Of a DNA stretch of 64,000 bases, positions 58,510 through 63,900 are shown piece by piece (positions within the stretch are counted from its first letter, which is position 1; each line of letters starts with the position of its first letter). This DNA comes from Marine Group III euryarchaeote CG-Epi1 (GTDB lineage Archaea > Thermoplasmatota > Poseidoniia > MGIII > CG-Epi1): assembly GCA_001875345.1 (NCBI GenBank), contig MIZA01000001.1, positions 67,340 to 131,339 on the forward strand, in the 5' to 3' direction. Under the pieces are notes generated by a model. The model did not search any database. It was not told the origin of the DNA and saw nothing but the letters and a program-made list of their open reading frames with translations. The translations under genes were made by a program, and so were the position numbers.

Positions 58510-58971
58510 TCACCGCGGTTGAACTGGTAAAATGGCAGTTCGCGTCATAATTATCTTTTGCTTGATATTATCATCAAGACTAATATCAATATCCTTAGCT
58601 AAAGTAGAAAAATCATAATTTTTAATTGAAATAACTGAATCATCTTCGGAAATAATTTCTGATAAATCTGGAGAAGGCTCGCCAAAATAGACCCACCCTA
58701 CAGCTTTTGTATCTTTATTAATTCCGGCCAATTTTAATGCTTTTGATATTTGCCTGAGTGAAGTTAAGTATAGTAAAACTTCTGTAGATTTATCTTTTGA
58801 TAGATTAAAACCATTATCGTGAGATGATAGAGAAAGAGTTGCAGCTTGATACAAATGTTCAATTCCGCAAACACTTTTTGAGTCTACAATGGTTAAATTT
58901 GAAGTTACAAAAGATAAAATTTTATCCAAATCATTCGTTCTCAAATTACCGCAGCCTACAGTTAATTTCAC
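58510..58971 (-). CDS. cgi121: KEOPS complex subunit Cgi121
   Basis: VDSKSVCGIEHLYQAATLSLSS...STEVLLYLTSLRQISKALKLAGINKDTKAVGWVYFG. Confidence 0.82.
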   Translation of the reverse strand: MKLTVGCGNLRTNDLDKILSFVTSNLTIVDSKSVCGIEHLYQAATLSLSSHDNGFNLSKDKSTEVLLYLTSLRQISKALKLAGINKDTKAVGWVYFGEPSPDLSEIISEDDSVISIKNYDFSTLAKDIDISLDDNIKQKIIMTRTAILPVQPR

Positions 58972-59033: not shown

Positions 59034-59738
59034 ATGAGCGCTGAGTTAGAAGAACAAATTGCACAGCTTGAAAACAGCTTGGGTCAAGAACAACAGAGAC
59101 TTGAAAAGTTATGGGATGCTTATGAACAACAGGAAAAAGATTTGAATGCATCTTTGGACAGAATTAATTACTTAGAATCTGATATTGAAACCAGGCAAAC
59201 AATGATAACTTCTTTACAAGAATTACTTACTGAAAGAGATGCAAAGCTCCGCGACCTTGAAATTCAGAGACAAAGGCAAAGTAAAATTGCTGCCGAATAT
59301 GAACCTAAGATTAAAGAAATGCAAGGAATAATAGAAGATCAAACCGAAAAATATGAACGATTATTATCCATTACTCAGGAAATGGAAGATGAACTTGATT
59401 TAGCAAGACAATCTTTGCATGCAAGAGATGGTTGGTTTAACGCCAACATTAGTAGTTTAGAATCAGTTTCTGAAATTATTAAAGAATGGAGAAACATACA
59501 AGGTGGAAAATTCCCTGAAGTTAAGGAATCAAGTGGACCTGGTGGAGGAAAAAGTGCATTCGTTTCTTCTGTTGCAAAAATAAAAGGTTTAGGAGCTGTA
59601 AAAGCTGAAAATCTATATGATGCTGGATTCCATACTGTTAATGATTTGAAAAGTGCATCTACAGAAGATATTGCAAGTGTAGTTGGATTTACAAATCTAA
59701 GCGCAAGTAAAGTAGTAAAAGGCGCTAAAGAACTTTAG
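59034..59738 (+). CDS. coiled-coil protein with C-terminal helix-hairpin-helix domain
   Basis: About 140 residues of heptad-rich coiled coil then VAKIKGLGAVKAENLYDAGFHTVNDLKSASTEDIASVVGFTNLSASKVVKGA (HhH). Confidence 0.82.
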   Translation: MSAELEEQIAQLENSLGQEQQRLEKLWDAYEQQEKDLNASLDRINYLESDIETRQTMITSLQELLTERDAKLRDLEIQRQRQSKIAAEYEPKIKEMQGIIEDQTEKYERLLSITQEMEDELDLARQSLHARDGWFNANISSLESVSEIIKEWRNIQGGKFPEVKESSGPGGGKSAFVSSVAKIKGLGAVKAENLYDAGFHTVNDLKSASTEDIASVVGFTNLSASKVVKGAKEL

Positions 59739-60271
59739 ATTAGTAGAAAATTAGTAATTATTTCCTGATTTCTTACCTCTGGATGAAAAGAGACTCCAAA
59801 AACATTAATCTTTTTGTGGGATATCATTTGTATTGTATTTTCACTTTTAGCTAGAACATTGAAAGAAGTGACTTCATCTACCGAAAAATTATGCATATTA
59901 TATGCCTGAAAATTTCCACTTGCTAAGGGATTCTTAATCTGTGTCTCAACATTTATCATGCCTATTTCTTCTTGAACTATAATTTCCTCATCAAACATGC
60001 TGCATATTATTTGAAAGCCTGAACATATCCCCAATATCTCTTTTCCGTGATTTTTTAATCTATTAAAATCGAATAAATAATTCAAATAATCATTATCTTG
60101 AAGAGAGGTTCCACAAATTATTACCTTATCATATATTTGAAAATCCAAAGTTTCTAAGTTTCTGTAGTTAATAATATCATAATCAAAAGATTTAATTATT
60201 TCAATAATTGGCTTAACAAATTCATATTCACTCAATTTCTCTTTGCAAGTTGATATTAACAATATTTTCAT
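59735..60271 (-). CDS. class I glutamine amidotransferase (GATase) domain protein
   Basis: Nucleophile elbow ILGICSGFQII and FHPEV His-x-Glu: intact Cys-His-Glu triad; ATGA overlap with Dph6-like gene. Confidence 0.85.
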   Translation of the reverse strand: MKILLISTCKEKLSEYEFVKPIIEIIKSFDYDIINYRNLETLDFQIYDKVIICGTSLQDNDYLNYLFDFNRLKNHGKEILGICSGFQIICSMFDEEIIVQEEIGMINVETQIKNPLASGNFQAYNMHNFSVDEVTSFNVLAKSENTIQMISHKKINVFGVSFHPEVRNQEIITNFLLI

Positions 60272-60942
60272 TTGAGTTTAGCCTCTTTTATTTCTAGACG
60301 ACCTGAAAAATTAGAATAGTGAATTTTTGAAGATAGTACCTCTAACTTTTTTGAAAACATAGGTGCATTAATTACTAAAGATTCAAATTCTCCTCCTTCA
60401 CCAGCAGGATTAATTCTATACTTTTTTGAATATAATAATAACTCATTAATTGTAGAAGAATCAATCTCTTTTCCCAACCAGGATTCATCAAATGGTTCCG
60501 CTGCGATTCCTGTAATAATTGAACTAATATTGTAAGTTTTAAGTTTCTCTAATAATTTTTCTTGAGATAATTGCCATATTGGATTGAAGCACCATAAATC
60601 CAATCTATTGCAAATCTTTTGTATTCTCGTTGATTGGTATGTTGATGCTAATGCTCCTGTAACTATTCCTTCAATTGAGTATTCTTTTTTTGCCTTTTTG
60701 ATTAAAGTAATTAAATCGTCTAATTCATCGTCTTGAATCCCTTCAGTTTCTTGAATAACTTGTGGAATACCCAGAGATTCTGCTTGTAATTTTGTCCATG
60801 TAATTGCTGGAGTGTGAAACATCCAGCTGTCTTGGTTTGAAGAGTTAATTGTTAGCAAACATGATATTTCGTGGTCTTCTGAAGCTAAATGCATTGCAAG
60901 ATATGAATCCTTGCCGCCTGAGAATAATATTCCTAATTTCAT
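60268..60942 (-). CDS. dph6: diphthine-ammonia ligase (Dph6-family N-type ATP pyrophosphatase)
   Basis: LFSGGKDSYLAMHLA PP-loop, GIVTGALASTYQSTRIQKICNRLDLWCFNPIWQ, EPFDESWLGKEID, NPAGEGGEFESLV. Confidence 0.9.
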   Translation of the reverse strand: MKLGILFSGGKDSYLAMHLASEDHEISCLLTINSSNQDSWMFHTPAITWTKLQAESLGIPQVIQETEGIQDDELDDLITLIKKAKKEYSIEGIVTGALASTYQSTRIQKICNRLDLWCFNPIWQLSQEKLLEKLKTYNISSIITGIAAEPFDESWLGKEIDSSTINELLLYSKKYRINPAGEGGEFESLVINAPMFSKKLEVLSSKIHYSNFSGRLEIKEAKLK

Positions 60943-61529
60943 CGACGTTTCCGCTTAGCTATCAAGTATACTTCGCTAGATTGTTTACGTGATGCTTCAG
61001 GCGATAATGTTCTTACAGAACCAAATTCATCAATTACTGCCTTTCTGTATTCTTGGAAATCTGCACCTTCAAAAACCTTGACAACAAATGCTGAAGCTTT
61101 CCTTTCGGCCGCAATCTCTAACGCTAATGATGATAATTCAACCGAACGCGCTTGATCTACCGAATAATTTCCTGATAAATTAGGGCTCATATCTGATATC
61201 ACTACATCTGCCTTGGGCATCAATTCCTGTAATTGCTCTCTTGTCTCCGACTCACGTAAATCTCCCTGGATGAAAATAGCACCAGCCAACGGCAATATAT
61301 GTTGTAAATCCACTCCAACAAGTTTGCCTTCTTCTCCTATAAATTCTAATGCAACCTGTGACCAGCCACCAGGTGCGGCTCCTAAATCTAAAACTTTATC
61401 CCCATTCTTAAAAATCTTACTTCTCTTTTGTATATCTTTCAACTTATAAGTTGATCTTGCCCTATAGCCCTCACGACGAGCTTTCCGTTGAAAAGCGTCA
61501 CTCCGGCCCTGACGGCCTTGTCCTGGCAT
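60939..61529 (-). CDS. rlmE: 23S rRNA 2'-O-methyltransferase (RrmJ/FtsJ family)
   Basis: YRARSTYKLKDIQKRSKIFKNGDKVLDLGAAPGGWSQVA, VISDMSPNLSGNYSVDQARSVEL, KVFEGADFQEY. Confidence 0.95.
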   Translation of the reverse strand: MPGQGRQGRSDAFQRKARREGYRARSTYKLKDIQKRSKIFKNGDKVLDLGAAPGGWSQVALEFIGEEGKLVGVDLQHILPLAGAIFIQGDLRESETREQLQELMPKADVVISDMSPNLSGNYSVDQARSVELSSLALEIAAERKASAFVVKVFEGADFQEYRKAVIDEFGSVRTLSPEASRKQSSEVYLIAKRKRR

Positions 61530-62634: not shown

Positions 62635-63900
62635 ATGCCTAAGTTGGCCGAGAAATTTATTAGTGATAATGGCGCAAACATTTATGATAAAGTAAAGATT
62701 ACAAATAAAGACCAAACTTTCGAAGGAATTATCATGCCAAGAAATAATTTTTCTGGAGAACATATTGTTGTCATAAAACTCGATAATGGATATAATATTG
62801 GAGTCTCTACCGAAGATGCTGAAATGAATGTTATTGAGAAAGCAAAAGAAAAACCAAAGAAAGAACTTAAAAACAAAAAAAATAAAAATCTAAAAGATAT
62901 CACCATATTAGGAACTGGTGGAACTATTGCCTCATTTGTAGATTACAAAACTGGTGCCGTAAGTCCAGCGATTACTGCTGAACAGCTTGTAAATTCGGTC
63001 AGTTCATTAAAAGAAATAGCTAATATTGAAGCTGAACCTCTATTATCTTTAGCATCTGAAGACATGGAGCCAAAGCATTGGGAACAAATGGCTGTAAAAG
63101 TAGAAGAAATACATTCAAAGAAAGACCATGGAATAATAGTGGGTCATGGGACTGACACTATGGGATATTCTGCCGCTGCTCTTTCATTCCAATTACCTGA
63201 ATTGTCTAATCCAGTTATCTTCACAGGATCTCAAAGAAGCCCTGATAGACCTTCAAGTGACGCACATCTAAATTTGGAAGGGGCTGCAAAAGCTGCTATG
63301 ACAGACTTAGGAGAAGTATCCATAGCTATGCATGAAACAACAGATGACGTGGGCGTAGCTATCTGGCGAGGAACTCGAACTAGGAAAAATCATTCATCAA
63401 AAAGAAATGCTTTCACTTCATTGAACGATGAACCTATAGGAATTGTAAACGAAAAGATTGAATGGAAAGGAAAATACAAACCTATTTGTGATAAAACTAC
63501 TATAAAACCGGGATTTGACGAGAATATAGCTATGGTTTGGGCACATCCTGGATTTAAAGCTGAGGATTGGGAAAACACAATTACTTCAAAAAAAGGAGTC
63601 GTGATTGCTGGAACTGGACTGGGACACATAAATTCAAACTTACTAGATTCAATAGGTAAAACGGCAAAGGATATCCCTGTTGCAATGTCTACACAATGTT
63701 TAGCTGGAACTACCAATCTTAATGTTTACAGAAACGGAAGAGAATTAATAGAAAAAGGGGTTGTGGAAACTCACGATACATTACCTGAAACTTCACTAGT
63801 AAAAATGATGTGGCTGACAAAACATGAGCCAAATAAAGTCGGTGAGTTAATGGGCGTAAACCTTGTTGGTGAACTGTCGAATTCAAGAAAATTAATTTGA
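62635..63900 (+). CDS. gatD: Glu-tRNA(Gln) amidotransferase subunit D
   Basis: N-terminal AD-type domain, ILGTGGTIASFVDYKTGAVSPAITAEQLV, VGHGTDTMGYSAAAL, FTGSQRSPDRPSSDAHLNL. Confidence 0.95.
   Translation: MPKLAEKFISDNGANIYDKVKITNKDQTFEGIIMPRNNFSGEHIVVIKLDNGYNIGVSTEDAEMNVIEKAKEKPKKELKNKKNKNLKDITILGTGGTIASFVDYKTGAVSPAITAEQLVNSVSSLKEIANIEAEPLLSLASEDMEPKHWEQMAVKVEEIHSKKDHGIIVGHGTDTMGYSAAALSFQLPELSNPVIFTGSQRSPDRPSSDAHLNLEGAAKAAMTDLGEVSIAMHETTDDVGVAIWRGTRTRKNHSSKRNAFTSLNDEPIGIVNEKIEWKGKYKPICDKTTIKPGFDENIAMVWAHPGFKAEDWENTITSKKGVVIAGTGLGHINSNLLDSIGKTAKDIPVAMSTQCLAGTTNLNVYRNGRELIEKGVVETHDTLPETSLVKMMWLTKHEPNKVGELMGVNLVGELSNSRKLI

Follow-up and report, generated by a model that had tools for sequence, protein, structure and literature searches.

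A class-I glutamine amidotransferase encoded beside dph6 in two archaeal phyla: a probable glutaminase subunit for diphthamide synthesis

Diphthamide is an unusual modification of EF2 that is completed by Dph6, and in Marine Group III euryarchaeote CG-Epi1 the dph6 gene is directly followed, and overlapped, by a gene for a class-I glutamine amidotransferase (GATase). The GATase is probably a dedicated glutaminase subunit of Dph6, with the pair making up a two-subunit, glutamine-dependent diphthamide synthetase. From gene linkage and from analogy we infer a physical complex of the two proteins, a transfer or channelling of ammonia between them and the use of glutamine as the nitrogen donor in vivo. 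The analogy is with GMP synthetase, whose PP-loop enzyme adenylates the substrate and receives NH3 from a class-I GATase. Glutamine would be bound by the GATase and its side-chain amide attacked by Cys83, aided by His163 and Glu165; the freed ammonia would then be handed to the active site of Dph6, where the carboxylate of diphthine on EF2 would be adenylated with ATP, yielding diphthamide, glutamate and AMP.

The stretch of DNA analysed, referred to here as the window, comprises 64,000 nucleotides and contains the following features.

60939..61529, minus strand: rlmE/FtsJ-like RNA methyltransferase, at the head of the run of overlapping genes
60268..60942, minus strand: dph6, diphthine--ammonia ligase, 224 aa (TIGR03679, motifs)
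60904-60921, minus strand: PP-loop SGGKDS of dph6, residues 8-13
60382-60399, minus strand: EGGEFE motif of dph6, residues 182-187
60268..60271, minus strand: ATGA overlap of 4 nt, in which the start codon of the GATase meets the stop codon of dph6
59735..60271, minus strand: class-I GATase, 178 aa (reading of the open frame, triad, Pfam)
60023-60025, minus strand: codon TGT of GATase Cys83
59783-59785, minus strand: codon CAT of GATase His163
59777-59779, minus strand: codon GAG of GATase Glu165

The three genes form a minus-strand run in the order rlmE/FtsJ-like, dph6 and GATase, in which both neighbouring pairs share 4 nt, and the rlmE/FtsJ-like gene is probably co-transcribed with the other two. 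An earlier note on this DNA had described the ATGA overlap and a full triad in the GATase, and both descriptions hold, with the two reading frames in place, 4 nt common to them, and Cys83, His163 and Glu165 read straight from the sequence. The context that the same note drew from rlmE stands only in part; the gene does overlap dph6 by 4 nt, but no rlmE accompanies the pair outside the window's family at the loci examined, and the point adds little. Further genes in the surroundings include gatD, for subunit D of the Glu-tRNA(Gln) amidotransferase (62635-63900, plus strand), the KEOPS subunit Cgi121 (58510-58971, minus strand) and a coiled-coil/helix-hairpin-helix protein (59034-59738, plus strand), whose gene lies tail to tail with that of the GATase and shares 4 nt with it at its 3' end.

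Judged by its sequence, the gene at 60268-60942 is a bona fide dph6. Its product scores 268.5 bits against a TIGR03679 equivalog cut-off of 197.3, aligns over its full length with PF0828 of P. furiosus (3RJZ and related entries) and, in a Pfam scan, exceeds the cut-off of PF01902 alone. The SGGKDS and EGGE/DxE motifs are invariant in the Dph6 alignment, and the window protein is devoid of the ENGEF/YH motif of DUF71-B12; the EGGExE motif is what separates Dph6 from the B12-type DUF71 proteins, which carry ENGEF/YH (PMC3541065). The 1.18-Mb assembly to which the window belongs (87% complete) encodes this single Dph6 together with one Dph2, one Dph5 and an EF2 with the diphthamide-histidine loop LHEDAIHRGPAQ, all checked by family search, so that, by sequence, no part of the diphthamide pathway is missing. 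Across GATase-bearing genomes, Dph2 was present in 20/20 and Dph5 in 18/20, with the diphthamide loop found in all 19 full-length EF2 proteins. As side observations, dph5 and carA of the window's genome are same-strand neighbours (G000:C15:18112-19934, L001), and of eight Nanoarchaeota-type genomes sampled, seven (G396, G414, G442, G458, G527, G651 and G674) encode Dph2 in two pieces that cover about 60 and 230 positions of the profile, a split DPH2 having already been reported for Nst1 (PMC3655853).

The GATase matches Pfam PF00117 with 57.7 bits (cut-off 22.8). In an alignment of 98 GATase family sequences the Cys, His and Glu of the triad are each conserved at 100%, and six further positions, E17, F18 and P21 along with G54, T55 and D59, are near-invariant and particular to the linked family. 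We infer from this conservation that these residues are candidates for a partner interface and the oxyanion region. The GATase was also modelled with AlphaFold2 from the window sequence and one relative, at a pLDDT of 50, which is too low for the model to be of use.

Conservation of the dph6-GATase adjacency was followed through two archaeal phyla, that of the window and a Nanoarchaeota-type phylum, the latter being the phylum of Nanoarchaeota assembly L039, where the pair was first found beyond the window's phylum, with other genomes assigned by group codes. The window's family comprises 23 genomes, of which 16 hold both genes in full, four hold neither and three have dph6 truncated in the assembly; the GATase gene lies directly after dph6 in 16/16, with the 4-nt overlap kept in 15. 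Identity to the window copies within the family is 38-53% for the GATase and 49-73% for Dph6, so gene order and overlap have persisted while the sequences diverged considerably. A GATase profile search of 296 genomes of the window's phylum gave at least 147 bits for true family members and below 80 for the GuaA-like background, and the true GATases of other families were directly downstream of dph6 in ten of ten cases, mostly with ATGA or GTGA overlaps. Within the Nanoarchaeota-type phylum, 78 of 380 genomes match the GATase profile at about 100 bits or above. Among the 77 members examined, the gene is directly downstream of dph6 in 55 (46 of these with ATGA), and in 16 more it shares the strand of dph6 at a distance of up to 3.1 kb, with an insertion between the two; the stretch examined held no dph6 in the remaining six, three of which have the GATase at a contig end. 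These genome counts are not counts of independent events, and transfer lowers the number of independent associations further.

The genes flanking the pair vary between groups, with dph6 being the common neighbour over the two phyla. That the same adjacency recurs in both implies more than chance, and in this respect the conservation that the earlier note had asked about is evident, unlike that of other neighbours. Natural Dph6-GATase fusions, which it had also raised, were absent from the loci searched for them. In three related genomes (G442, G577 and G414, loci L155, L157 and L158), the EF2 gene stands divergently beside a run of three genes, namely one for a 190-aa protein that matches no Pfam family and overlaps dph6, then dph6 itself and the GATase gene.

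The tree of Dph6 places the linked proteins of the window's phylum among those of the Nanoarchaeota-type, while the usual Dph6 of the window's phylum forms a separate group (SH-aLRT 99), although two of these outgroup rows are placed elsewhere in a larger tree. This grouping suggests that the dph6-GATase pair was transferred between phyla as a unit, in either direction. The two proteins also correlate in their tree distances, with GATase and Dph6 over 57 pairs giving r = 0.80 and none of 999 permutations as high; shuffling within groups also gave 0/999, and the Nanoarchaeota-type rows alone gave r = 0.83.

The pairing might instead be a gene order that became frozen and says nothing about function, given that compact genomes often have short gene overlaps and that spread of the pair partly by horizontal transfer leaves fewer independent associations than genomes. 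We regard this as improbable, as order and overlap remain unchanged at the low GATase identities inside the window's family, the 16 genomes of the other phylum with an insertion still keep the two genes near and on one strand, and the triad is never lost in the 98 family sequences.

Dph6 is also found with a glutaminase module of a different class. Among the 380 Nanoarchaeota-type genomes, many Dph6 domains lie in frames of 477-1045 aa, often in the order class-II GATase, Asn-synthase PP-loop domain and Dph6 (PF13537, PF00733 and PF01902), and these AsnB-type modules sit on a sister Dph6 clade. In the Dph6 architecture table, which lists 150 of 352 genomes, the linked class-I GATase occurs in 0/29 genomes with an AsnB-type fusion versus 70/121 without; the Fisher p of 9e-10 is not independent evidence, however, because a single change on the Dph6 tree accounts for the AsnB-type fusions together with the Asn-synthase neighbours, and the exclusion therefore counts as one evolutionary event. 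Related Dph6 proteins with neither a nearby class-I GATase nor a fused module also occur, which makes the GATase dispensable for Dph6 function, and it appears to have been lost repeatedly. Individual loci with Dph6 fused behind or adjoining an Asn-synthase-like PP-loop domain are L169-L176, L249-L268, L274, L278, L280, L282 and L286. The class-II GATase domain is absent from about a third of the Asn-synthase-Dph6 fusions. One frame of 1037 aa (L176:40-3150) joins an OBG/DRG-type GTPase (MMR_HSR1 plus C-terminal extension) to class-II GATase, Asn-synthase and Dph6 domains, and may be either a genuine gene or a product of assembly.

Free-standing gamma-glutamyl hydrolases exist among the class-I GATase-like proteins, and the GATase shows a weak Peptidase_C26 match of 23.6 bits, both of which would suit a hydrolase that removes, for example, the diphthamide amide or a gamma-glutamyl group and so forms a counterpart to Dph6 instead of a subunit of it. 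This is quite unlikely, considering that the best GATase matches are synthetase subunits and that a sister Dph6 clade bears a different class of glutaminase, which agrees with a supply of ammonia but not with its removal.

The comparison with GuaAa concerns the identity of the GATase itself. Among curated families it comes closest to models of GMP synthase subunit A, but it scores 51 bits where the cut-off is 198 (51.4 bits for the GuaAa equivalog NF001975) and 45 bits where it is 172; the nearest solved structures are likewise GMP synthase subunit A (1WL8, 2LXN). In the tree, the linked GATases form a group of their own (SH-aLRT 92), separate from the GuaAa group (SH-aLRT 100), and identities as GuaAa, CarA, PyrG or PurQ are excluded by the NCBIfam cut-offs together with this tree. 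A profile search of the window's genome returned six class-I GATase matches, the five others being CarA, PyrG, PurQ, a GATase-like protein without family assignment and a true GuaAa (215.6 bits, cut-off 198), the presence of which means that the linked GATase is not this genome's GMP synthase subunit. At E <= 0.001, the GATase profile matches nothing in Nanoarchaeota assembly G313 other than the GATase linked to dph6. That the GATase serves another synthetase, such as GMP synthetase, and only shares an operon with dph6 is thus highly unlikely, its nearest solved and curated relatives notwithstanding, in view of the GuaAa score, the separate clade, the GuaAa, CarA, PyrG and PurQ encoded elsewhere and dph6 as the common neighbour over two phyla. 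The view of the earlier note that the GATase is unlike the usual archaeal GuaA subunit is upheld by these results, and its wider idea of a glutamine-dependent Dph6 has come through the genomic tests unrefuted, there being no grouping with GuaAa and a conserved linkage to dph6.

Reading the GATase as a glutaminase subunit of Dph6 opens a broader picture, which we consider reasonably likely: large groups of uncultivated archaea may make diphthamide from glutamine by way of an undescribed class-I GATase subunit, with at least two unrelated kinds of glutaminase recruited to Dph6 (class-I in trans, class-II/AsnB in cis) and the pair passed between phyla as a unit. If true, class-I GATases would gain a new partner and the maturation of a translation factor would be tied to glutamine status. 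A class-I GATase partner of Dph6 was not found reported in the open-access literature searched, and nothing there came closer than the 2012 proposal on class-II/AsnB-Dph6 fusions (PMC3541065). No NCBIfam equivalog covers the linked-GATase family, and naming it in annotation would become possible. As a conserved two-gene system free of an extra PP-loop domain, the pair brings the glutamine question within reach of work on EF2 and the two proteins in purified form.

RidA-like domains belong to the deaminases and have no relation to GATases. Those at the C-terminus of yeast Dph6 have been suggested as an ammonia source (PMC3585130; PMC3541065), so that the yeast enzyme resembles the GATase-Dph6 pair in having an accessory module suggested for ammonia, but carries it fused to Dph6 whereas the GATase here is a separate protein. 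Closer are the GAT-II/Asn-synthase-Dph6 fusions of some archaea, for which NH3 from glutamine was proposed in 2012 (de Crecy-Lagard et al., PMC3541065), with a reviewer remarking in the same paper that the extra PP-loop domain leaves the NH3 recipient uncertain. Here too Dph6 is given a glutaminase module, yet the fusions have a class-II GATase in cis and an additional Asn-synthase PP-loop domain, while in the window the GATase is of class I and in trans, a second PP-loop enzyme is lacking, and the Dph6 of 224 aa is without the N-terminal class-II GATase and Asn-synthase domains. The class-I pair is easier to interpret than the AsnB fusion because Dph6 is its only PP-loop enzyme. In its organisation the pair would follow the two-subunit archaeal GMP synthetase (GuaAa plus GuaAb), where a separate class-I GATase is likewise joined by a PP-loop ATP pyrophosphatase. 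It differs from that system in that the linked GATase falls below the GuaAa cut-off, forms a separate clade and is without the GGAP/GGP motif, and in that the partner of the GATase is Dph6 and the substrate a protein.
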